Shown: piece after piece, positions 2,185-26,361 of the stretch
Layout: each line of letters opens with the position of its first letter
How positions within the stretch are numbered: the first letter of the stretch is position 1
Assembly (NCBI GenBank): GCA_023078555.1
Contig: CM041200.1
Span: 2,178,001 to 2,242,000 of the forward strand
Reading direction: 5' to 3'
DNA from: Ulva prolifera
Taxonomy: Eukaryota > Chlorophyta > Ulvophyceae > Ulvales > Ulvaceae
DNA length: 64,000 bases
Position numbers and translations under genes: made by a program
Notes under the pieces: generated by a model
Database searches by the model: none
What the model saw: the letters and a program-made list of their open reading frames with translations, nothing else
Told to the model about the DNA's origin: nothing

Positions 2185-2967
2185 CTGTTGAGGTTTTTCT
2201 GGTGTACCTGCTGCAATCCGCAGGATACTTCAATCAGCAGAGAAAGCATATGTGCACAAGTCAAAAGTGCAGGTAAAAACTCAATGCAGGTGTTCCAGTA
2301 ATGTTGTCTCATCTTTTAAGTCCGTTGTGCATGTTGCATCTATAGTTATTGAACAGTTATGCAAATTGTAAGAAAACATCGCATCCACCACAAACCGTGC
2401 ATGACCTTCGTCTGCAGTGCTTTCTCATTTGATCGATGTCGGTGTGACCAAAATTTTGGCAGCTCACTTATTCAACCTCGCCCCCCGGTACAAGCCACAA
2501 CTACTTGACATTGCAGTGCTAGAGTTCATTGCGATGCGGTAATTGAAGCAGTTACTTTCCTCTACGACGGTCGTATCCCTACGCCTCCATGTGGGTCTAA
2601 CATACAAGACACTGCAGTGCACTGGTATCTCTCGTGCGCACTTGCGTCACACGTGCTCGCACAGGGATGACGCGGCTGGTCGACCTGAACCTTTGCAACG
2701 CAGTGGCGGGTTGTCTAGGCGTGCCTTCGGATTGTGCTCCTGCTGATTTTTTGTGCTGTTGGGATACAGGCATGGGACAGGCCGTTCCAGCACCTTGTGT
2801 TTCAAGACATCGCTAGTCCCGCCCCGCCGAGCGCAAACACTCGAAACGAGCAGGCGCGAGTCGAGCGCAATAATTCTCCGTGGACTGGACTGATTCTTGT
2901 GGGGACGATTATAGCCGATAGCGGTATCCGTTTGGCGCGTTACTGTCGAAGTTGTGCCTTTTCGAGC
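2185..2967. other. Intergenic, LCYB to PH1-like gene
   Basis: No coding sequence I can support. A TGTAA, the green-algal type of polyadenylation signal, occurs near 2367 downstream of the LCYB stop, which would suit its 3' end. The remainder should hold the promoter and 5' UTR of the PH gene; no clear TATA element is seen. Confidence 0.4.
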
Positions 2968-3868
2968 ATGAACTTCCTCGGCCCGTCTACAGAGACAGAC
3001 GGTGTTGAATTCTGGAACAGACCGGAAAGGTGTGGGTGGCTTGAGAAGCAAGGTGCGAGTTATGCAGATATGAGAACCTGAACACGCACCGTGAACTGTT
3101 GCCGACATTTCATGCCCACAGTCGCTCAGCAAATTGCTGCATATGGCTGCGTGCACCTGCAGTTTTGGCTTGTATAGTGCATAGATGCATACGTTGGTGT
3201 TGCTGCCGAAGCGTAGGTCATTGAGGTTGAATGTCAACAGTGATGCCACACAGGCACTTGGCTCCCGACATGGAGGCGACGATGGTTTATTTTGAAGGAT
3301 GGAAAACTGTTGTGGTTCAAAGATAATCATATAACTGCGGAGTCACAGCCGAGAGGCGTTATTGAGGTATGTTTTCGTCACCTCTACAACACTGATGCAA
3401 TTCTTCTTCTCAAATTAGGCACCATATCATGAGAAATGGCCTCGTGGGGACCGCTTGCGAACTTCAACTGAATTGTTGTCATGTGTGCGAAGATACGCGG
3501 GTGCATTGCAATCAAAGGAGCTGAGGACTCAACTGCATGTGCTGGCAAAGCGCATGCATTCGAGATTTCAGTTCAGGGTGCTGGCCCACAGTATTTCATC
3601 GCTGATGACAGCAGGGTATGGTTCAACACTGATGTATGCCGCCAATGAATATTTATTGCCTTGCCTGCACAGAGCGGATCGTGCAGGAGAAGGAGGACTG
3701 GATCAATGCGATAGGGCAGGCGATTGTCCGGCAGTCCCGCAGGTAAGCTGTCACCACTACTTATGCAGAAATGCACGAACTCGCATTATCGGTTCTCATA
3801 GCTAAATGTCGTTTCAATGCAGTGCCCTTACAGAAGAACAGACAGATTACGGTGCTGAGGTGCGATAG
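2968..3868 (+). CDS. Small PH-domain protein, plant PH1-like
   Basis: A 144-residue protein that is almost entirely one pleckstrin-homology domain, the type that binds phosphoinositides and attaches to membranes. Five exons: 2968-3052, 3254-3366, 3493-3615, 3675-3742, 3823-3868, all phases compatible. It opens with DGVEFWNRPERCGWLEKQG, continues TWRRRWFILKDGKLLWFKDN and SQPRGVIE, and ends with FEISVQGAGPQYFIADD and EKEDWINAIGQAIV, the conserved C-terminal helix with its Trp. This is the layout and length of Arabidopsis PH1. The intron between exons 3 and 4 is only 59 bp. It faces RAD51D tail to tail, the stops being about 120 bp apart. A second PH protein on the other strand near 12.5 kb has a closely similar PH start. 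Confidence 0.88.
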
Positions 3869-3988
3869 AAGCATAAGCAAAGGCATGTCAATGTCCCAAG
3901 TGCCGCATATACATCTGATATGTAAAGTAGTTGTCTGAAACAGTGAGATGATTCCAATTCTTTGCCGATGGATAAGGGTAGATAGTCG

Positions 3989-5270
3989 TTACACTGAACG
4001 CTCATGGGCGACATGGGGACCCGAATCAGTCACCAAAATATGTGCAGTCGCAGATTTAAGATCCGGCCGTGTAAACGTTGCAGACTGTAGTGAGCTTATG
4101 TAAACGGATTCATCACCCTGCCTCTCGCCTTCTTGCATCAGGAGTCGGTACTGGGCTTCGTGAGTCCACGAGAGACCACCCAGTGGTCTGCCTGAGCCAT
4201 CCACATCGTTGGTTGTGATCACAGAACAACCACGAGTCATCGCGAGACTCTTTAACTTCTTGGCTATTGCTGAGATCAGTGCTTCTCCTGCATGGCAACA
4301 CGGATTGTAGGCCTTTCCTCACCGCACACTACGTTTCAAGGACAATTCGATGTACAACCTTGATGATGGTGTGTACTTCCGGCCCTCAAAGCCCGCAGAG
4401 CAGGGCCAAGGCCATCGATGATGCAGACAGCAGATTTGTCGTCTACACCCTCCATGTCGTGAAGCTGATGAAAAAGCTGCAACGCGTTGCCTGCGCGCGA
4501 CACTTTTATTTTCCGCATCAGATCGACAGGCTGTGCGTCCTGCACGACTAGACATCAGTTTGAAGGGCTATGCCATGCTTACCATCAAGACATCATTTGG
4601 TCACACACCTTCTCTTTGATCCGACACTGCAGAATTTCATGCAGCCTGGTTGCACTAAACCCATCAGTCATGTCCACCCAATGCACGGGCTGTCCCTGAA
4701 GCAGAATCGATGCAGCAATGCTCAGACACATCTGCACAAGTGCACAAGTTCGATTTTGAATCATGGCACAACTGGAGAGAAAAAAAACGCGTTGGCAGCG
4801 TTCCTGTGTTTTCCCAGTGCAGCATGGCCCGGCTAGTTCGACCACCTGCTCATCTCTCAAACCTCCACCTAAAAGTTGATCAATTCTGCAGCAAGCTGGC
4901 GAGTGGAAGTTTATGGACGAATGATGAAAAGATTTCTCAATTCTGCTGTGACATGCGGTGGCGCACGTCGGAACACCGGTAGAATGCACACGGACATGGT
5001 CCGCTGTTCGCTGCAACAGATCCAGTCCGCTCGTGATGATCATGCGAATATAAATGTGCTTCACGATATGCTGCACCAATGCTTACATGGCAACGAGTCC
5101 GGCGGCGGCCTCGGTTGCAGCGGATATACCGCGGAGCTTTGGACGACCGTGTCGTACACTTGACTGGCATCAAGAATCAGACCAGCTGCGGGAGCGAGCC
5201 CACGACCTTCCACGGGGCAAACATGCACTCACCTCCATTGATCGTCTTCAGTAGCGGAGAGCATTCGAGA
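3989..5270 (-). CDS. RAD51D: RAD51 paralog, RAD51D-type recombinase
   Basis: RecA/RAD51-family ATPase of the BCDX2-type complex that assists RAD51 loading in homologous recombination. Exons read on the minus strand: 4895-4804, 4731-4609, 4539-4377, 4287-3989. Visible parts are IDQLLGGGLRDEQVVELAGP, Walker A GPCCTGKTQ, CLSIAASILLQG, HWVDMTDGFSATRL, a Walker B-like VCIIDGLG, then KKLKSLAMTRGCSVITTND and LGGLSW, which match the C-terminal half of RAD51D better than XRCC2 or RAD51. Codons just upstream (to 4977, ending VHST) fit the linker before the core. The helix-hairpin N-terminus and start codon, probably between 5100 and 5270, are not resolved. Between the Walker A exon and CLSIAAS lies a 72-nt in-frame segment starting GA and ending AG. 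FAN1 lies immediately upstream on the same strand. Confidence 0.85.
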
Positions 5271-10882: not shown

Positions 10883-13178
10883 TCACCGACGCTCCCAGGA
10901 TGTCTCCTGTGTCCTTTGGTTGTAATAGTACGGCCGGCCTTCTGGAGTGTACAGCATATCCCACTGTGCCGGCTGTGGCGGAGGTGGCACCGGTGGGGGG
11001 GGCACCGGTGCATGTGCAGCATAAGCATGCGCAGTGCCCCCACCCACCCCATATGCTGGCTGCTGCAATGGCGGCTGATCCATGATGGAAACTACATTAA
11101 GCGTGTCTGGCAGTGCAGGTGCAGCGGGCGCATAGCCATGCTGTGCTTGAGGTGGCCCACGTGAAGGCGCTCCGCCTTGGTATGCTTCTTGAGGTGGCAG
11201 GCCGCCGTTGGGTTGCGATGGGTAGGATCTGTCCGACACGGATATCGTTGACGGCAGTTGAGGCTGGCCAGCACACGAGGCGCGTACACCTGCCACGCCT
11301 CCTATTCCTGCACCTTATCTGTCCTCAACGCGGCATCACAGTGCACACATGAATTCTGTGCGCCACCAGTGGGCTCCTGCTGACGATGTGGATGGCACAT
11401 ATCTAGCGCAAACTGACAGAGGCGCAGTATACATATATGTAGCAGATGTTAAACGGTTGATTAACAAACCACATGTCATAGCCAGCAACAGGCAGAAGGC
11501 AGGAGACATACCTCCAATTGTGGTGCCGGTGCCCCTTCCATAGCTGATGCCAAGCTCATCTCTGTACACATCAGCATTACCAGCAGAGTTCCGCCCGTAG
11601 CCTTGAGGCGCACTCTGCACTGAAGACAGAAACGAGGGCACCTGGGGGGCAGTTGGCGGGGGCACCACACCGGGGTAATTCATCGAGCCTGCAATCGAGC
11701 ACCACATGTGCAAGAGAGGCATGACAATCGGTCACAGAGCCCTCAAATCGATGGTCAGTATGAAATGCACAGATGACAAATTCAGGACAGCGGATTAAAA
11801 CTTGATTCCTGGTACTGGCAAGCTTCAGCATTGTCTATGCAGTGTGAGCAGCTCTGCTGTTTGTCAACCGCACCGATCACATGACATCTAGACACCAAAG
11901 CAAGCGACACCCCACTTGCAAAGGCATCGTCATGAGCATACCTTGCACTGCCAGGCCAGAGCGACGGGACACGTCCGGTTCACGATTAATTGAGTGCGAA
12001 CTCTTGTAACCATTCTCTGCTTGCGCCAGGTATGCACTCTGGCTGGATGCAAAAGGACGGCGCGATGAGGTGTCAGGCGCTGCAGCTGCCTCTTCATCGA
12101 CTCCAGCGATTATGCGCATCAAGCGTGAGACTGTGCCCTCCAAAGCTGACATCCACTCCACCATCTCTGTCTCACTGTCAGCCAAATACACAACAAATCC
12201 TTTTTCACGGCCAAGCTTGATGCTATTGGCACGATTTGTGACACTCTGCCCACTGCTTACTTCCCCTGCCTGCAAAGCCTTTCAACTCCCAACATGCCTG
12301 AGGTTCAGCACCATGCGCATCAATTCAACGGTCGCTGCTCAGCTAGATGAGACATTTATGCTCACCTTGGAAAGATCAACTATCCCACGTGGCTTGGACG
12401 ACGGAGTGACCTTATCATCTAGGAACCGAAAGAGGAAGCCATCTTTCAGAACAAACCAGCGTTTACGCCAGGTTTTGATTACTTCGCCTTGACTATGCAG
12501 CCAACCTTGCTTCTCGGGAGACCTCCAGAACTCAACTTCATCGGCGTTCTTCAACTGCACAAAACTCAATGTTGCACAACAAAGACGCTCGACATCCGCA
12601 CGACCGACACACCGCGATGGAAAAAGTGAGGATGCTCAACCTGCTTATGCCGCCGACCGCCGTTATTAGCTACTGCACGTATCTCATTAGCCACATCCGC
12701 CTGCTGCTGCGCTTCCATGATTTCGACCAGCCTGCGCACACGAGCTGTCTGGACATATCGAGCAACTCCATCAGACGACGGATACAAGTGGTGTAAAGGA
12801 AGCTCGTGGCATGCTTCAATTAAAATCTTGCAAAGGCACGAGCACCATCAAAATGAGAGCTCACTGTAAACAAAACGACGTGAGCGAGTCCAGCAGCGAC
12901 GTCAGCGTTGCGCTTGTAGAGTAGAAGCTGACTGCCTTCTCTTCTAAATCGGCTGGAGTTTTTACAAACATTGTAAGTCGATCGGAGTTGCGAGTCCAGC
13001 GCGTGATCTGTTCCAAAGGTATCTTGCGCTTTGTCAGCCTACCCGCGCGATCAAGAACCTTCAGCCCATCGATGGACAGGTTTAAGCTGACATCGTCGGA
13101 TCCGGAATCATCAACTAGCGTTGTGTTATAAAACGTTTCTGAATGTCCGTGGAAGTTATCCATATTGCAAACCGGCAC
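10883..13178 (-). CDS. Adaptor-like protein with PTB-like, PH and WW domains
   Basis: Not matched to a named family. From the N-terminus (13178-12861) comes a probable PTB/PH-like fold: LNLSIDGLKVLDRAGR, IPLEQITRW, VKTPADLEEKAVSFYS, LTSLLDSLTSF. A charged helix (about 12770-12600, LVEIMEAQQQADVANEIRAV) leads into a full PH domain: VEFWRSPEKQGWLHSQGEVI, TWRKRWFVLKD, SKPRGIVDL (12550-12360), then GREKGFVVYLADSETEMVEW (about 12220-12150). A Ser/Pro-rich linker (11950-11000) ends in a run of prolines and a C-terminal WW domain, QWDMLYTPEGRPYYYNQRTQ then ETSWERR and the stop at 10885-10883. WW domains bind Pro-rich ligands and PH domains bind phosphoinositides, so a membrane-linked scaffold is likely (inference). 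Its own linker is Pro-rich and could fold back on the WW. Exon borders are approximate. Confidence 0.75.
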
Positions 13179-13734: not shown

Positions 13735-16700
13735 TCAATCAAAAGTCTTCTTGCTGCCCGATCCTCCCCCAGCATCTATCCGGATCCCACGTCCTCCCCC
13801 CCGGCCTCCTCGACCACCTCCTCGGTCTCCTCGTCCACGACCACCCCCGCGGCCTCCTCCAAATCCGCCTCGACCACCGCCGCCAAAGCCTCCTCCCCCA
13901 CGGCCCCCACCACCTCGACCCCCACCACCAAACCCACGGCCTCCACCACGACCTCCTGCAAGCCACCCTCACTTGAATCATCTGATGAACAGTCAAATGG
14001 AGACCAAGTGGTTGATGCAATGTTGGTTGCTGGGTAATATCCAGAGGGTAATGGCCCCAACGGAGCTCCCCAAGATGATGGAATCAGCATACAGCACATG
14101 GCCCGGGATCGCGCCACCTTATTCACCGAAGCGTTAAAATGGGGATCGACCGGATGCTTGATATATGGCGTTGATGTGGAGCCATACAGCGTGAAAATGC
14201 CTTACGGCAGCTGCCTCCAAACCACCCACACAGCTGGGAGCTACCCAGACCATGCGCGCCATGTGAACTTTACATTCACATTTCATTAAAGGAGATAGAT
14301 TGGTCTCAGAGATCATGCATGACACCAACATAAGAATCACACCTCGGTCTCCTCTGCCACGACCACCTCCTCCACCTCCACGAGGATTCGGATCCACAAA
14401 GAGCGATCCACCGGCACAATCACTTCCAGCCAAGTTCTCTGCCGCTTTTTCCTGCATATAGAGTGGGGATAAAAAAACTGAGTGTCATGTAGGAATATCA
14501 TGCGTGTCTCAAAATACACACTCACATTGTACCAGTGCGCTGCAAAAAACATTGTTCATCCCGCATACACGAGAGTCTCAGAAACCACATATCTACCAGA
14601 GGGTAAATTGGGAAAAGGATATGCCCGCCGTGGTGGTATCATCAGCGACTGTAGATGTCGTGACTACTGAAAAAGCTGACGGATACACGAAAACACAAGA
14701 GAGCAGCATATCTACCAAAGGCAGAGTTGAGCAAAGGACATGCTCCAGTCAGCAACTTCATCAGCAACTGTAACGCACACAATACACACTACAGGACAGC
14801 GCAGCCACACACAGGCCAAGGTCCCAGACGTTGACGTGTCTGTCACATTGAAGAGATGAGCAAAGGATGTGCTCTGTCAGGGACATCATCAGCGACCAAA
14901 TCTGTAGGATACAAGCATCACAGCACCACATCATCAACAGTCTTAGACTCCGCATCTCTGCCACATGGCAGAGCCGAGCAAAGGATGCACTCGGCACGGT
15001 GTGGTCATGAAGAACAATAGCACAACATAAAATAAAAGAGCGTGGTTGATCAGCAATGATTTCGTCGACTATCTCGTCTGCCAAACGGCAGCATTGAGCA
15101 ACGGGTGTTGCAGGTCGGAGGGTTATCATCAGTGATAAGAACATCGGGCAACATTTCCGGACGCCTTAAGGACCCTATCAAGCCTCAGAAGCCATTTATC
15201 TGCCATGGAGCAGATTTGAGCAAAGGATGTGCTCGACTGGAGGGGCATCATCAGTGACCATAGCGAGAGAAAAAGCAAGGAAACGAGCAACCCCTGACAA
15301 ATCGCAAGTCTCAGCCACCCAGAAATCTGCCACAAGACAGAACTGAGCAAAGGATGCGCTCATTGGGAGGGACATCATCAGCGACCACAACGAGAGAGAA
15401 AAGCAAGGAAACAAGCAACCCGTGACAAATCGCAAGTCTCAGCCACCCAGACATCTGCCACAAGGCAGAACTGAGCAAAGGATGCGCTCATTGGGAGGGA
15501 CATCATCAGCGACCATAACGAGAGAGAAAAGCAAGGAAACAAGCAACCCGTGACAAATCGCAAGTCTCAGCCACCCAGAAATCTGCCACAAGACAGAACT
15601 GAGCAAAGGATGCGCTCATTGGGAGGGACATCATCAGCGACCACAACGAGAGAGAAAAGCAAGGAAACAAGCAACCCGTGACAAATCGCAAGTCTCAGCC
15701 ACCCAGACATCTGCCACAAGGCAGAACTGAGCAAAGGATGTGCTCATTGGGAGGGACATCATCAGCGACCACAACGAGAGAGAAAAAGCAAGGAAACGAG
15801 CAACCCCTGACAAATCGCAAGTCTCAGCCACCCAGAAATCTGCCACAAGACAGAACTGAGCAAAGGATGCGCTCATTGGGAGGGACATCATCAGCGACCA
15901 CAACGAGAGAGAAAAGCAAGGAAACAAGCAACCCGTGACAAATCGCAAGTCTCAGCCACCCAGACATCTGCCACAAGGCAGAACTGAGCAAAGGATGCGC
16001 TCATTGGGAGGGACATCATCAGCGACCACAACGAGAGAGAAAAGCAAGGAAACAAGCAACCCGTGACAAATCGCAAGTCTCAGCCACCCAGACATCTGCC
16101 ACAAGGCAGAACTGAGCAAAGGATGTGCTCATTGGGAGGGACATCATCAGCGACCACAACGAGAGAGAAAAAGCAAGGAAACAAGCAACCCCTGACAAAT
16201 CGCAAGTCTCAGCCACCCAGACATCTGCCACAAGGCAGAACTGAGCAAAGGATGTGCTCATTGGGAGGGACATCATCAGCGACTACAACGAGAGAGAAAA
16301 AGCAAGGAAACAAGCAACCCCTGACAAATCGCAAGTCTCAGCCACCCAAACATCTGCCACAAGGCAGAACTGAGCAAAGGATGTGCTCATTGGGAGGGAC
16401 ATCATCAGCGACTACAACGAGAGAGAAAAAGCAAGGAAACAAGCAACCCGTGACAAATCGCAAGTCTCAGCCACCCAGACATCTGCCACAAGGCAGAACT
16501 GAGCAAAGGATGTGCTCATTGGGAGGGACATCATCAGCGACTACAACGAGAGAGAAAAAGCAAGGAAACAAGCAACCCCTGACAAATCGCAAGTCTCAGC
16601 CACCCAAACATCTGCCACAAGGCAGAACTGAGCAAAGGATGTGCTCATTGGGAGGGACATCATCAGCGACTACAACGAGAGAGAAAAAGCAAGGAAACAA

Positions 16701-19700
16701 GCAACCCCTGACAAATCGCAAGTCTCAGCCACCCAGACATCTGCCACAAGGCAGAACTGAGCAAAGGATGTGCTCATTGGGAGGGACATCATCAGCGACT
16801 ACAACGAGAGAGAAAAAGCAAGGAAACAAGCAACCCCTGACAAATCGCAAGTCTCAGCCACCCAGACATCTGCCACAAGGCAGATCTGAGCAAAGGATGT
16901 GCTCATTGGGGGGGGCATCATCAGCGACTGCACCAAAACATGCAAAGTGAAACTCAGCATCACAGATAAGTCTCAGACACCCTAACATCCGTTACGAAGC
17001 AGAAGTGCTTAGAGGATGAGCTCGTTTAAGATACAACATCAGGGACGGCCATCTCCCCAGGGGCCCACACAACACTGAGACATGTTTCACGAAATAGAAT
17101 TTGCCAGAGACACAGTATCTGCGCATGCAACACGGGATGCCCTCAACACAACGACTGCAGCTTCACAGGCTTTCGAAAATCGATCACCTCGACACCTGGG
17201 ACAAGCATGACATCAGATGCACATTGGCTACGTACGGCATACCACATGATGTTGAGATGATCCAGACGCTTTGATGCATTATTTAGCATACGCCTTGGCA
17301 TGCCTTGGTTTCTGTGTAATCTGGAATCATGCGTGTGCAACATCAGGGCATGTTCAACAGATCGAAATCACACCGTAGCACCATTGGCTTCTTCAAACAC
17401 CACAAACCCAAAGCCCTTCAGGCACTGGTTCTCGCGGTCATAGGGGAGCCCCACACGCTCGACAGTGCCATACTCACTGAAAGCGTCTGTAAGAGCCTGC
17501 TTCAGAGAGTCCTCGTCCATGTAAGTGTCAAAGCCCTTGATGAAGCAGGTCTTGCCGTCTCCCGGATCATTGCGATCACCGTTGCTTTCACCTCCCATGG
17601 ATTGGCGTCCAGCAGGCCTTGCTACACAGTAGCGCATCGTGTCAAAAGGCATCTGGCAGTGAGGCTGTACAAAGCAGCGGCAGCAGCGGTGGGCAAGAGA
17701 CGTACATTCAGAGAGGTCTATCCGCACTGCTCGGCCATCAAGGTCCTCACCGTTGTACTCAACGGCTTTCACTGCTGCTTCATGTGTTGCAAATTCGACA
17801 TGCGCAAACCCTTTCCGCTTGCCAGTGTCCGGGAATGTTGCAATTCTGATAGCCACAACCTCACCGATGGCACCAAACCACTCGTACATTGCGTCCTCCG
17901 TCACATTGAAAGACAGATTGCCCACAAAGATTGTTGTTGCTGCACAAAAATAACTACCTGTGAGGTCAACACGGTACTGGCAATCTGGGGTAAAAAAGAT
18001 GTATTGTTCTTCATGTTGAGCGCAAAACAGTTTGATGCTACATTTTATACACATGTGTGCTGGACGCGCAGCTCAGGACGAAAGACTAAAACATTTGCCC
18101 TCATCTTGCATCGGGAAACATGACATCAGGGATGTGTTCATCATCGCTGCCATCATGCCACATCCATTCAACTGCATCAGGTCAGATCAGATGCACAACG
18201 GCTGGCACACACCTCCACCGCCAGCAGCTGCGGGGGCTTTAGGCTGTGGTGCTTCCTCTGCTTCAGCCTCAGCCTTACGCTTTTTGCCTTTCACTTGCGC
18301 CTCAGAAGTGACCTTAGCATCCATTTTATCATCTTCGGAGTCGTCGTCACTGCCCTCTTCATCCGAGCTGTCCTTCTTGGGTTTCTTTGGAGCTTCATCG
18401 GAGTCATCCTCATCGTCGGAATCATCATCCGACTCATCAGCTTGCGCAGCAGGGGAGGGCTTGGCAGCAGCTTTTGCCTTTGTCTTGGGCGCTTCATCAG
18501 AGTCGGAGTCATCATCAGAGTCGTCCTCCTCGTCAGATGAATCTGCATCTGCGGCAGGCTCTGCGGCAGCAACAGGGGGTGCCTTGGCTGCAGGCTTCTT
18601 GACATCCTCAGAGTCATCATCTGAATCATCTTCATCATCTTCATCATCAGAAGACGATGCTGCCGCCTTCGCTGGCGCCTTGGCAGCTGCAGCTGGCTTG
18701 GACACGGGTGTATCCTCATCGCTGGAGTCGTCTTCATCATCGTCATCATCTTCGTCTGAGCTCGATTCAGACTTGGCTGGAGCAGCCTTAGCTGCTGCAG
18801 CCTTCACCTTGGGTTTAGCTACAGCTTTTTCATCCTCAGATGAATCAGAATCATCCTCGTCATCAGAAGAGTCAGCCTTCGTGGGAGCAACTTTGCCATT
18901 TTTCGCAGGTTTCTTTGTCGCAGGTGTGGCCTCGTCACTGTCATCTTCAGAAGACGAGTCAGACTCCTTCTTCTTTGGAGGAGCCTTGCCTGCCTCCTCT
19001 TCAGATGAGCTATCGTCATCAGAGCTGCTTGGCGGCGGCTTCTTGCCCTTCTTCTTACCCTTAGCAGCTATATCTTTCTTCGGCACAGACTTCTTGGCAT
19101 TCTTCGCAGCCTGCAAGTCTAGAGTCGTCTCCGCCAGTGAATGCATCTCATATGATTGGCACTAAGCTGTACACCAGGGATTGGGGCCGCAGTTGATACG
19201 CAAGCAAACGGGACGCGCTGGAAGCATCTCAACAGTTATGCATAGCCCTCGCACACAGACCGATACGCCTGCAAGGCGGCATCCCCGAGTTCCGGCGGCC
19301 TACTTGCCGGTCGTGGTGGGCAGATATCGTGCAGCTCTCCAGCGCGCACGCAAGTGAATGACAATATACAGTGCATGACTATCATACTGATGGGGCAGTT
19401 GCATGATGCTTAAACGTGCATGCGTCTTGCACTGCGGTGTGCGCCATTGTGCTCAGCCGTCACAGCAGGTGACAGGCGCCGGCCACGGGCTGGACAGTAA
19501 ATGCCAAACGATGGACTGCTATTGGAGTACACTTAATTCGGTGCCAACGGGATGTGATTGGTTCAAAAGCGTTAGTGGGCAACGGCGCCAGAACACCACG
19601 GAACACCTGCAGCGGCTACACACGACCATTGACGCCATGGACAAAACGATGTGCTTAGCGATATCCTGTGTTCAACATGCGGTATGAATTCATGATATTC

Positions 19701-20942: not shown

Positions 20943-23900
20943 TCACCGGCTCGGTTGCTTCTCATCCACCAGTGTCAGCCACAAGTTGGCTGCTGCGACT
21001 ATCACTGGTAGGCTTGCCCCAGCTTCCTTAGATCCGTGATCAATCATAGCATCCGGCTCGTTGCTAGAGCCGTGTGTACGCCATGACAGAGCGAGCATGT
21101 CAGTGCGCCAGCCAGCGCACGGCAGCCCAGTCAGGGCGCACACGTCACCGCTGTCTACATCATCCTGCACATCCCCGTCCTCCCCATTCACAGGCACATG
21201 CTCCAGACATGCCGCCAATGGCTTGGACTCAACGCCGTCGTGCAGCCGCTGCAGCACGTCTGGCGGCAGCGGCAGCGGCCCGCGGACACCCCCACAACCT
21301 CCTGCACCGTCTTCCCCAGCCCCTGCTAGTCCGCCCTGCTGCAAGGAGATCTGCAGCATGGGGATCAGCTCACCGAAGTCATGCAGCTCAAAGCATGCAC
21401 TTGCTGTGCCAATGAAGCACCCGCAGCAGTGCAGCTGCGGGAGTTCTCGCATGTCACCTGCTGCCTTGATCATGCGCGAGCGACGATGCGGCACTGCAGC
21501 TAGGTCGACCTCCTCAAATGGCAGCTTGAACGCCTCCAGGATCTGCGTGAGCCGCCGTGACTCTGCGGCCGCCTTGCGGATTGTGAGGATGCTTGACATG
21601 TAAAGCACCAGCCCTTCGTCGCGCATCCCAGCAGCCCGAGCGGCCGTTGCCGCTGATGCATCTGCATCGCCCAGCAGCTCAGCCCCTTCTAGCTCTGCAT
21701 CTGCACTCAGGAGTGCATGTGGCGGCGCCTGCTCTCCGCAGTGGCGCAGCATGTGCCGTGCAAGCCGCTCTAGCATGGAGACTGCCGCCCAGAAGGACCC
21801 TGGAGTTTGTGCAACGATCTCCTGAGCCGTCATGCCCTCATTGAAGCCTACCTGGGCGGCAGATGCCGCGATCCCAAACATGCTGATGCATTTCTCCGCC
21901 AGGTGCTGCCTAACACTCGCCTGCTGCACAGACCGCCTCACAGGCGTGGCCCCAAACGACTCCTCAGCTTCAGTGGCGCTTGCCATGCGCCGCATTGACA
22001 GAGTCAGCAGGCGTGCAAACATCCTTGGGGCGTCTGCAGCATCGGGATCTGTGCCATCCTGCTGCCTGGGCTCCGTCAACCCGGCTTTGGTGGGAGATGC
22101 GGCCAGGGCTGCGGCTGCAGCATCGCTGACGGCCCGCGCCATCGTCTGACCTGGCGCCTCCTCATCATCAGACGGCGGCCTCAGCTCCAGCGGGCCCGGT
22201 GCGCAGGACAATGGACTACTGGGTGCGGTGGCGCCGAGCCCACCATCGGTGTCCTGCCTATCCATCACCGGTAAGCAGTGCACAGGAGACGCCGCCTCGC
22301 CGCTGCTGCCTGCGGCACCGCCTGGCAGGTCCGAAGTCTCGCTGCCAGATGCTAGGGGTGCCTGTGGGGCGACGGAGGCATCATCCGCCACTGAGAACTC
22401 AGACCACTCGCCGGCAATCACAGGCGGGAGTGCATGTGCGTGTGCCGCAACCTCTGTGGTTGTGCGCCCTTGCAGAGGCAGGGCCTCCTCGGCAGCGCCG
22501 CCCACGCCCGCTAAGTCTGCCCAGCTGCAGTCGCGTCCACTGGGTCCCCTCGGCCGCAGCTGCAGGTTGTCCCCATCGTTACCTTGTGATGAGGCGGCAG
22601 AGCCCATCCGAACCCGCAGCGGATGCGGTGGCCCATGAAGCGGCTCTTCACCTGGCAGCAAGCAGGGCACGCGCGCTGCTGCAGAGGCGTCGCCGTTTCC
22701 TGAGCGTTGGGATGGCAGCGACCCTGAGGTGCGCGTCTCACTGTGCAGACCACTGGCGTGCCCGTGCCTACACTCGGCAGCACGATCCGGTGGGTCTGCA
22801 TGCGCATGATATGGCGGCTTGTCGCTGCTGTTTGCGGGCTGGCAGCTGAGGCTCCTCATGGCGAGCTCTTGGTCCGGCGCTGCCAGGCCGGACGTCCCGC
22901 CAGCAGCAGCATCTCCGACGGCAGTGTTGTCCATGGTCAGGTGCGTGCCGCTGTCAATGGTGAACAGGCTTGAGAGACAACATTGTTCCCGTTCCACATC
23001 GCTGGTGTCGACAATGTCGGACGAACGCATGCCACTTGACGGCACATCGGCATCACTTGTCTCTCGAGCGGCCTTGCTGCTCTGTGCTTGGACTGCATCG
23101 GCATCTTTGTCGGGGTCCATGGACGTATGCACAGCCGGGGCCAGTGCTTCTGGTGACATCTGACATATCTGCGCAGTGACGATCGGTGGAGGTACCACAG
23201 GGGCACCGAGCATGACTTCGCCCGCGGTTGCGCAGGCTGCATCATTGAGATCGACTGAAGGGTCTATGTCCACATGGTCTGATGTCTGATGATCAGGTCC
23301 TGTCTGATAAAACGCCAGCAGCAGTGCGTCCTGCGCTGCTTGAGCGCTTGGTGATGTGATGGACAGCTCTACTACTGGTGATCTGGCGGACTGCTCTGCT
23401 TCTTGTGATGTGCCGAAAAGCTCCACTGCTGATGATGTCCTGGACTGCTCGGCTGCTGGTGACGTGTCTGGTTGCTCCACTGCGGCAGACCCCGGCCGCA
23501 CCTGGACCTGCAAGCCACCATCCCCGAGAAAGTCGCCCCAGTCGTCACCCGAAGCATCCACCCCCCGCTCCAGGCCACACACAGATTCTATTGCAGGCTT
23601 AGCAAGCTCTGCATGATCGCCAGCAAAGTCACCCCAGCTTTGGTCGGTCGGGCTTGCTGCAGCCAGCCTGCTGGTGCCTGCAGCATCACCAGCTGTGATG
23701 TCGCTCATGGCAACAGCCCCAAGTGGTAGCCCGCCTATGGCCCCTTCCGCAGGGTCAGGGCAGCCCGAGGTGCCTGGAGCATGTGTTGACGGCACAGTGG
23801 ATGCGTGTAACTCCCACATGTCATCTTCATCACACAGAGCAGTGCAGGCCGGGCCTGAAGGCTCATCCACATCCACCGGGCAGGCTCGCAGACTGGCGCT

Positions 23901-25690
23901 TGGCCGCTCCCCCATCTCGTTCAAGCACATTGTGGCAGAAGCCCCTGCTGTGTCAACTGAAGCATCTAGCGTGGCGAAGGCATCAGTTCCCGCTTCCCGG
24001 AAGGATCTTCTTGCGAAATCCGCAGCCGCCGCCGCCAGATTTCCCTGAAATGGCTCAGATGATGTTGGAGCACAGAACAATTCAGCAGGCAGTGCGCTCG
24101 GCCCGCGCAACAGAGCAGCTGTGTAGCTGGTGTCTGAGCTTCGTGCTGTGTCGGGAGTGCAGTCATCAGGCTCTTGCAATGTGGGCCGGCTGGAAGCTTC
24201 GGCAACGCTGGACGTGCCATCACCAACTGGTGCCACCTGCTCTCCCACCGGCGCAGCAGCAAAATCTTGCCACTCCTCGGACCCATCGTCACTACCACGA
24301 CCATTGGCAGCAATGCCTGTGAAGATTGGCGAACGAGGCCGGTCTGTGCTAGGTTGGACGGCTGCTTCTTGGAGTCGCCTGACGTCAACAGGGCGCTCAC
24401 AGTCTACTCCCGACCCCCACAGTTCATTGGCTTTGTTACAGCCATTGGGTCTGATGCGAGGAGCTCCGCCAACAAGGCTGCTATTAAGAGCATGCACCGC
24501 TAGCTCCGCTTCAGAGCGTGGCTCGAAGATGCTGTCAGCCTGGGCTGCGTTCAGATCTGCCGCACTCTGTGCTGGCCCAGACACCGGGGCCGATGCAAAT
24601 GACGGCTTGCTGAAGAGGTCAGCAGGTAGTGGTCCAGCTGCCAGACTCGAAAACTTTGGGCTGTCATTCCCCGAGGGCTCATGCTGTGCAGGAGGAGCTA
24701 CGGTCACAGCAGGAGCAGCAAATTCGCCCCATGAAAAATCACCGTCAACCAGGCAGGGAAAATGTGAACCGTCTTCCGTCATTGTTCGGCACGGAGCCGG
24801 GAAAGCTGCTACCTTCCCTGCTATTGACACTGTGGTGGCACATGCTGGCCCTGGACTAACTTTAGCGCCTGGCTCATCCTGCTGTGACGCCATGGGCGCA
24901 GCTTCTGTTGGCACAGGCTGCCTGAACAGCCCCCAAACATCATTGGTGGTATCATCTGCATGGTTGTCATTTGCAGATTTTGCACATACAGAAGTGTCTG
25001 CTTGAGATTTGTCATCGATCGTGAGCTCTGCCTGGCATACGGCTTTGTGAGCAGGTGCGTCTTCTGGAAGTGCGCCCTGAATGACGCGGGGACAAATAAG
25101 CGGCTCAAGAGCCTCGCTTGCAGGTGCTGTGACTGTGGAGAATAGATCTTCCGGCAGGGGAGCTCCTCCAACTCCCTGGTGAGCTTCAGAACTGGGTCTT
25201 GCCACTTGCAAAGGGGCCCTGAAAGCTCCCCACCCGTCCTCAGCTTCAAGCTCATTGGCAGGTGCGCTTGCCACTTCCACATCTGCGGCACTACAGAAGT
25301 CTCCCCAAGGATCATCCTGCCCGGGACCGGAAGATCTCTGAACAGGCAGGCATGTGATATCAGCAGTGGTGGAACTACTCATGTTATGTGTGGATAAAGC
25401 ACGTGATGACCTCATGATTGGGGCGAGGCTGTATTCTGTACGTTGGCATGCTTAGTGTGGCTGGGGCAGAATTAGCAGACTTGCACGTACACTCACTTCA
25501 AGTGCCAGTTCGCCTTGCACTGCAGCATCATCTGTCGGGGCGGAGCCTGATTCAGCTGCAACAGTGGGACCAGCGGGCTGACCACCAGGCTCAGCAAAAT
25601 CCCCCCATGCATTCCACATATCCTCAGACCCAGCCTGCTCGGCGGTGCAGTCATCGTCCTCCAGGCTCGCATCCGCTGCATGATTCGTGA
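20943..25690 (-). CDS. Large synergin/aftiphilin-like trafficking protein with embedded SH3BGR-like domain
   Basis: One exon (about 25415-20943, nearly 1490 codons) plus an upstream exon (about 25680-25490) joined by a GTGAGT donor; the true start exon further 5' is not found. The long disordered Ala/Ser/Asp/Glu-rich body carries at least nine W-x-x-F motifs (WGDF several times, WGAF, WGLF, WGEF, WQDF, WSEF), the ligand type bound by gamma-ear domains of AP-1/GGA, as in gamma-synergin and aftiphilin. Near the end, CALTGLPC and VIVAAANLWLTLV resemble the Cys-containing C-terminal signature of plant synergin-like proteins. Between body and tail, 21625-21350 encodes a thioredoxin/SH3BGR-like unit: LYMSSILTIRKAAAESRRLT, LEAFKLPFEEVDLA, ELPQLHCCGCFIGT, FELHDFGELIPML. 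Likely cytosolic, at clathrin/AP-1 sites (inference). The fusion is unusual. Short ORFs on the other strand here are shadows. Confidence 0.75.
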
Positions 25691-25739
25691 AATTGATTGA
25701 CTTGTGGCTGGTTGTGTTGGTGTAGCTATAAGACAGCAC

Positions 25740-26361
25740 ATGCATGCTGCCACCTCCAAACCTTTGACATGTTCGTACATGACCACTGAGCGCATTCAGT
25801 CTTCCAGTAATGAAATCTCAAGTGCATATTTCCAGCTCCTGTTGTCACAACTGCCAGTTTTCGTCACACCTATTCGCATGGATGCAACATTCCACCGTTG
25901 CCTTACCGATGTGGCACAGTAAGTCACAGTCTCAAGCACATTCGTGGGACATGGCTCAGACGCTGATCAACATCGATTAAACTTCAAACTGAATTTACAA
26001 TGACTGCAGCTAATGGCAGAGAGCTATAGAAATGCGAAGGTTTGATATGTGGAGCATCTAAAAGCATTTCAGTACATAGAATTTCCGCGTTCCTCACTCA
26101 AATCTGATACAGGTTGTTCGCAGACTTCCTCGTCAAGACATCATCGCTCATTCTACATCAGCTGACGCATGACAGCCTGTCCTAATTGCTCGTGTCACGG
26201 TGTCTAATGCATGCAAACTGGCATGGTTCGGCTGCACGGCTCATGTCACCGAACCATCTACATCAACGACTATCTGATGTCGCAAACATGCATGCTTGCA
26301 GTCGATCATCAAGGCAGCACGACCTGATTGAGCGCTACAATTCATGACCATGGTACTGCTA
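25740..26361. other. Intergenic, upstream of synergin-like gene
   Basis: Probably holds the unresolved first exon and promoter of the synergin-like gene at its left side and the 3' flank of the next minus-strand gene. No supported ORF, repeat or RNA gene seen. Confidence 0.35.

Follow-up and report, generated by a model that had tools for sequence, protein, structure and literature searches.

Proteins of the SH3BGRL family are described as thioredoxin folds without an enzymatic site, which cap the pointed ends of actin and nucleate weakly, and the same fold is ascribed to the C-terminal region of yeast Aip5 (PMC12827327). In Aip5 (YFR016c), a protein of 1233 residues, nothing is reported as recognisable apart from a GRX-like domain at the C-terminus, which lacks CXXC/S (PMC6737964). 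The view of cysteine-less thioredoxin folds as actin regulators is recent and dates from 2019 for yeast Aip5 and from 2026 for human SH3BGRL (PMC6737964, PMC12827327). Among the clathrin-adaptor ligands, gamma-synergin is described with an internal EH domain (PMC8927860), and aftiphilin and p200 are reported as identified by gamma-ear pull-down or by gamma-ear-motif screening (PMC9988951). WxxF motifs are described as ligands of the sandwich subdomain of the AP-2 alpha-ear (PMC3794858). Here, we describe a gene of the green alga Ulva prolifera, in which a glutaredoxin-fold domain without the catalytic cysteine shares one open frame with repeated WxxF/WGDF motifs. The gene is located on the minus strand of a stretch of 64,000 nucleotides (assembly GCA_023078555.1, contig CM041200.1, positions 2,178,001 to 2,242,000), which is called the window.

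An earlier note on this DNA had proposed an SH3BGR-style thioredoxin or glutaredoxin fold inside a synergin-like protein and had regarded it as a candidate for an undescribed architecture. The shared frame of the domain and the motifs is borne out by the NCBIfam and Pfam matches, by the shuffles and by the frame itself. The domain combination was not found described and was seen in one genome. A search of the open-licence PMC literature yielded no paper that links synergin with glutaredoxin, and searches there on synergin/aftiphilin/AP-1 and on synergin/Arabidopsis/clathrin showed no such fusion by title.

A glutaredoxin fold without the catalytic cysteine

The minus strand from 20943 to 25451 is a single open frame of 1502 codons without a stop, the longest in the window (the runner-up has 533 codons). 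Over the same interval, the other sense frames have 44 and 82 stops and the antisense frames 48, 20 and 36. Residue numbers refer to the translation of this frame (P0001). The domain near its C-terminal end comprises the following features.

21336..21626, minus strand: cysteine-less glutaredoxin/SH3BGR-fold domain, residues 1276-1372 (family profiles, PDB matches, alignment and model)
21570..21572, minus strand: lost catalytic cysteine site, Ala1294 versus the Cys of CGFS in Grx4 proteins (36-row alignment, column census)
21417..21440, minus strand: retained cis-Pro motif (Pro1338 of LPQL), then the Cys cluster HCCGC (Cys1342, 1343, 1345) (alignment)

The excised segment was matched by NCBIfam TIGR00365 (Grx4) with E=5.4e-6, far under the cut-off of 117.1 of this model. 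The match covered positions 10-99 of the 116-residue query, corresponding to residues 1277-1366 and window positions 21354-21623, and agrees with the span 21350-21625 of the earlier note. NCBIfam GRX_bact gave E=2e-4, likewise far under its cut-off, and Pfam Glutaredoxin gave E=0.0039, under cut-off. Pfam SH3BGR (PF04908) matched with E=0.0016 and 19.0 bits at a cut-off of 21, and only over positions 4-55 of the 99 of the profile; the match had the same length in both, with 52 positions on the profile side and 52 on the domain side. The scan of the whole frame listed just two Pfam families at E=10 or below, SH3BGR (E=0.054, 14.1 bits) and Glutaredoxin (E=0.12); the HMMER filters conceal most weak matches from such a list. 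The genome searched comprises 88.9 Mb in 44 contigs and is the single eukaryotic genome compared. There, the window segment was the top of the three PF04908 matches with 18.6 bits, none of them over the cut-off.

A profile made of two sequences, the window domain and its relative in the same genome, was searched against the PDB and found human glutaredoxin-3 with E=5.2e-7. All 50 PDB chains listed up to E=10 were glutaredoxin, thioredoxin-like, thioltransferase, thioredoxin(-glutathione)-reductase or SH3BGRL by name. With a profile of 35 glutaredoxins, the domain scored 35.3 bits versus 6.2 for the best of 5,000 shuffles and 5.2 for the best of the 760 other window frames of at least 50 codons. 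This control favours the domain, since the 35 glutaredoxins were retrieved by similarity to it; the NCBIfam result is free of that bias. The profile search from the 36-row alignment is circular, as 35 of the 36 rows are glutaredoxins. LEAFKLPFEEVDL aligned to LEANKIEFEEVDI of SH3BGRL2, with only E=1 when that half was searched alone. The pattern TGGGGNGANTTC was found 79 times genome-wide versus 102 times for the reversed control, which is no excess and uninformative on other proteins.

The beta-alpha-beta-alpha-beta-beta-alpha order of the glutaredoxin/thioredoxin fold is recognisable from the sequence, and by these profile matches the domain is a member of the glutaredoxin superfamily by fold. 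Disorder across 21350-21625, by which the earlier note would have given up the domain, was rejected by the NCBIfam match, the PDB profile matches and the score with the 35 glutaredoxins. The claim of a domain stands.

In active CGFS/CPYC glutaredoxins, helix 1 starts with the catalytic Cys, which is absent here; the MAFFT alignment required one inserted residue beside Ala1294, and neither CxxC nor CxxS was found in the domain. Thirty columns are conserved in 90% or more of the 35 glutaredoxins, and the domain keeps 14 of them. These 14 include the cis-Pro motif before beta-4, which the earlier note had read as LPQ and whose P, Q and L (PQL) are identical in 36 of 36 rows. The residues gone are Cys, Gly and Phe of CGFS, Lys and Gly of MKG, the second Gly of GG, and Asp. 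Lys is changed to Ser, the second Gly of GG to Thr and Asp to Ser; Lys, GG and Asp are presumably the glutathione-site positions. With the loss of the catalytic Cys and of most glutathione-site residues, the domain is unlikely to be a redox enzyme, and this reading was rejected; the redox role suggested earlier is unsupported for the same reason. A thioredoxin fold without a catalytic site is the SH3BGR trait as stated in PMC12827327, and it is found here. By these sequence traits, including the 52-position match, the domain is SH3BGR-like, yet it is outside the family by the Pfam cut-off: proper membership is unsupported because of the 19 bits versus 21 and the higher Grx4 score.

The search of the genome with the frame protein yielded three matches, the protein itself, one on contig C1 and one on contig C6. 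The contig C1 relative, the only non-self match to the domain in this search, has 34% identity over residues 1281-1366 with one TGA inside. Compared with the domain, it is identical at 29 of 84 positions in an ungapped alignment and likewise has no catalytic Cys. It was second of three in the PF04908 scan, under the cut-off, and tenth of 24 in the PF00462 scan, over the cut-off. The contig C6 match (7967459-7967605; 49 residues aligned to residues 1197-1245, 43% identity, 23.5 bits, E=3.7e-4) was set aside because of its low score and because the opposite strand presumably reads as an RNA polymerase subunit gene; it is probably a chance match. With the C-terminal 485 residues as the query, five stretches of the viral contigs fitted a pattern and none was confirmed.

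At the contig C1 locus (10963000-10972500), two features occupy positions 2663-3037 and 3281-4057 of that interval. The cysteine-less glutaredoxin relative (Pfam Glutaredoxin, E=5e-6) comes first, and about 240 bases past it, on the same strand, ARM repeats of the KDM8-like type are encoded in an open frame (PF24472, E=1.8e-11); beyond this frame there are Cupin_8 matches (best E=5.6e-13). The locus is possibly another fusion of a dead glutaredoxin domain.

Two other explanations of the domain were weighed with these data. As a redox or metal module, it would use HCCGC (Cys1342/1343/1345) in place of the classical CxxC and would sense redox state or bind metal while the arm is on the coats. 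Three close Cys residues do stand in for V, N and E of the glutaredoxin consensus, right after the kept cis-Pro motif. Since the domain lacks the classical Cys together with most of the glutathione-site positions, and since the contig C1 relative has no such Cys cluster, we regard this module as quite improbable. As a decayed passenger, the domain would be a glutaredoxin captured by recombination that persists as a folded spacer with no specific function, which would fit a fusion known from one genome and the lost active-site residues. The retention of 14 of the 30 conserved columns with the cis-Pro motif, the frame intact across 1502 codons and the second cysteine-less domain of the same type elsewhere in the genome make such a passenger similarly improbable.

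An AlphaFold model that was built with the 35 glutaredoxin homologues had a predicted local distance difference test score (pLDDT) of 76, and Foldseek matched it to glutaredoxins, SH3BGRL3, SH3BGRL2 and Aip5, the last with the structures 6m4c, 6abr and 6abs at 18-25% identity over the fold. The VIA list is a re-examination of Foldseek's own matches and not independent of them. For 6M4C, the source is given as S. cerevisiae in PMC12827327 and as C. albicans in the PDB title.

The SH3BGR/SH3BGRL proteins (TPEC; PF04908) resemble the domain in the cysteine-less thioredoxin fold, in the LEAxKxxFEEVD stretch (E=1) and in the structural match to SH3BGRL3/SH3BGRL2. They differ in that the domain is under the Pfam cut-off with half of the profile matched; the SH3BGRL entries among the listed PDB matches are chains of 93-121 residues, whereas the domain here is one part of a protein about 1,500 residues long. 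Yeast Aip5 is described as a very long protein with a cysteine-less glutaredoxin-like domain near the C-terminus (PMC6737964) and is similar in this respect, but here 130 residues trail the domain, the arm has WxxF adaptor motifs and the identity is 18-25%. Unlike monothiol glutaredoxins (Grx4/GrxS14; TIGR00365), the domain has lost Cys, Gly and Phe of CGFS, the Lys, the second Gly of GG and the Asp, and its score is far under their cut-off.

The arm and its putative adaptor-ear motifs

The gene model and the short motifs of the arm are arranged as follows.

20943..25337, minus strand: main exon, residues 39-1502 and stop (uninterrupted frame; in-phase join to the upstream exon)
25338..25496, minus strand: proposed intron, 159 bp, GT-AG, donor GAA/GTGAGT, acceptor TTCAG/AGA (inspection of the letters)
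25497..25745, minus strand: proposed upstream exon with a ninth WxxF motif (WGDF at 25596-25607, within WNAWGDF)
25296..25307, minus strand: WGDF, residue 49 (this and the following by motif scan)
25221..25232, minus strand: WGAF, residue 74
25140..25157, minus strand: LPEDLF, residue 99
24924..24935, minus strand: WGLF, residue 173
24720..24731, minus strand: WGEF, residue 241
24612..24629, minus strand: LPADLF
24261..24272, minus strand: WQDF, residue 394
24075..24092, minus strand: LPAELF
23625..23636, minus strand: WGDF, residue 606
23529..23540, minus strand: WGDF, residue 638
22395..22406, minus strand: WSEF, residue 1016

With the proposed intron, residues 1-38 of the frame would be intronic. 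The start codon is uncertain and could be the ATG at 25745 or 25619 or one farther upstream.

Over residues 1-1200 of the frame protein, disorder-promoting residues make up a fraction of 0.68-0.75 of every 100-residue block. Residues 1-1165 contain 11 Trp, eight of them in WxxF motifs; the shuffle mean was 0.25, and none of 10,000 shuffles reached eight. Motifs of the type [FYW]G[DEP][FYWLM] occur four times in the same region, with 0.09 expected and none of 10,000 shuffles reaching this number. Ligands of the gamma-ear and of GGA proteins have the motif form aromatic-Gly-acidic-aromatic. By motif count, the predicted disordered region thus contains gamma-ear-type motifs, a trait of gamma-synergin and aftiphilin. 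DPW occurs once, at residue 47. The pattern LPx[DE]LF was picked post hoc, after inspection of the sequence, and its three copies in the arm were reached in none of 10,000 shuffles.

LPx[DE]LF (24075-25157, minus strand) is a second repeated linear motif of the arm. Repeats of 27/54 bp are found at 23349-23466 of the minus strand, inside the open frame in the disordered arm.

A profile search for the adaptin ear (PF02883) found at least one match in the genome with E=3.1e-12, in an exon that we take to encode a gamma-adaptin hinge and ear. The arm could belong to an endocytic AP-2 accessory scaffold with NECAP-like use of WxxF, not to the AP-1/synergin type, and the cysteine-less domain would then link to plasma-membrane actin. 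The DPW motif at residue 47 would suit such a scaffold. On the other side, four motifs fit aromatic-G-[DEP]-aromatic, the pattern of gamma-ear/GGA ligands, and the only ear exon among the matches listed presumably belongs to a gamma-adaptin. We therefore consider the AP-2 scaffold unlikely.

Somewhat better than even, in our judgement, is the reading of the gene product as a clathrin-adaptor accessory scaffold with an inactive thioredoxin-fold docking domain of the glutaredoxin/SH3BGR kind near its C-terminus. The disordered arm of about 1,150 residues would hook the ear domains of adaptors via WxxF/WGDF, most likely the gamma-ear of AP-1, and the thioredoxin fold with its lost active site would act as a non-enzymatic module for protein docking. 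The data show the single open frame, the enrichment of the motifs, the relationship to glutaredoxins by sequence and the loss of catalytic and glutathione-site residues, and we infer ear binding, AP-1 over AP-2 as the target, and the docking role. By analogy to SH3BGRL and Aip5, the likeliest docking partner, and the one with the best precedent, would be actin, at the pointed end of filaments or as nascent nuclei. Coat sites would in this way be connected with actin; we hold this step to be doubtful. Less likely still, the protein might represent a new class of green-algal adaptor accessory proteins with an AP-1-binding arm and a pointed-end actin module, where coat assembly at the trans-Golgi network or endosome would nucleate or anchor short filaments of fixed polarity.

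Several points weigh against the docking scaffold. The AlphaFold model from the single sequence was poor (pLDDT 43) and Foldseek listed no thioredoxin fold with it. The glutaredoxin likeness of the good model is partly built in because glutaredoxin homologues were used in the modelling. Glutaredoxin structures outrank SH3BGRL and Aip5 among the structural matches, and the Grx4 model outscores SH3BGR on the domain. A result against the domain itself is the PF00462 scan of the genome, which ranked the window segment 17th of 24, under the cut-off. AP-1 as the target is unestablished because WxxF motifs bind the AP-2 alpha-ear sandwich subdomain. The exon-intron structure of the gene model was read from the sequence alone. 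HEATR5/Laa1 (PF20210) had no match in the genome, a result that is uninformative as none of 14 controls matched either.

A cysteine-less thioredoxin fold in a green-algal scaffold of the clathrin-adaptor type would suggest an old, mobile eukaryotic module, and the fusion offers a direct test of coat-actin joining in this lineage. Even if the actin step fails, an apparently undescribed domain combination is left, together with a caution that the gene should not be labelled a glutaredoxin.

Flanking segments and the rest of the window

The segments on both sides of the domain are as follows.

21714..21944, minus strand: pre-domain segment, residues 1170-1246, helical by eye (no family found)
20946..21149, minus strand: C-terminal tail, residues 1435-1502 (CALTGLPC ... 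AANLWLTLV) (sequence)

For the pre-domain segment, no Pfam family was near its cut-off and no PDB match was convincing. BRO1 (E=0.14, 11.4 bits versus a cut-off of 35.1) was not used, and the 17 PDB matches, 16 of them stathmins (best E=0.2), look like composition or plain helix. The C-terminal 119 residues had no Pfam family; each of their seven PDB matches was to a designed 'Cake' protein (best E=0.0038), and these likewise look like composition or plain helix. Both sets of PDB matches were disregarded. The tail, residues 1435-1502, presumably resembles the C termini of plant synergin-like proteins. Neither an EH domain nor any family of synergin or aftiphilin was listed by Pfam scans of the 1502-residue frame and the upstream exon. 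The label 'synergin' is unsupported for this reason, and the tail, which the earlier note had called a synergin-type signature, matched no model; the synergin-like character claimed earlier is half supported, through the adaptor-ear motifs. Gamma-synergin and aftiphilin resemble the protein in their long disordered arm with aromatic-Gly-acidic-aromatic motifs. They differ by the EH domain of gamma-synergin, which was not found in the frame or the upstream exon, and in that the available text of PMC9988951 and PMC8927860 mentions no thioredoxin-fold domain for them.

Elsewhere in the window, a tandem array at 15210-16928 has a unit of 129 bp in 13.4 copies with 96% matches. A 320-codon open frame of the plus strand overlaps part of this array, which is probably non-coding satellite-like DNA. 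The minus strand at 17368-19161 shows RRM_1 matches (E=1.6e-29) adjoining a long acidic frame on the same strand that is rich in Ser, Asp, Glu and Lys; together they read like what we take to be a nucleolin-type protein. A PH domain (E=7.1e-11) was found at 12342-12635 of the minus strand, apparently in a separate gene.
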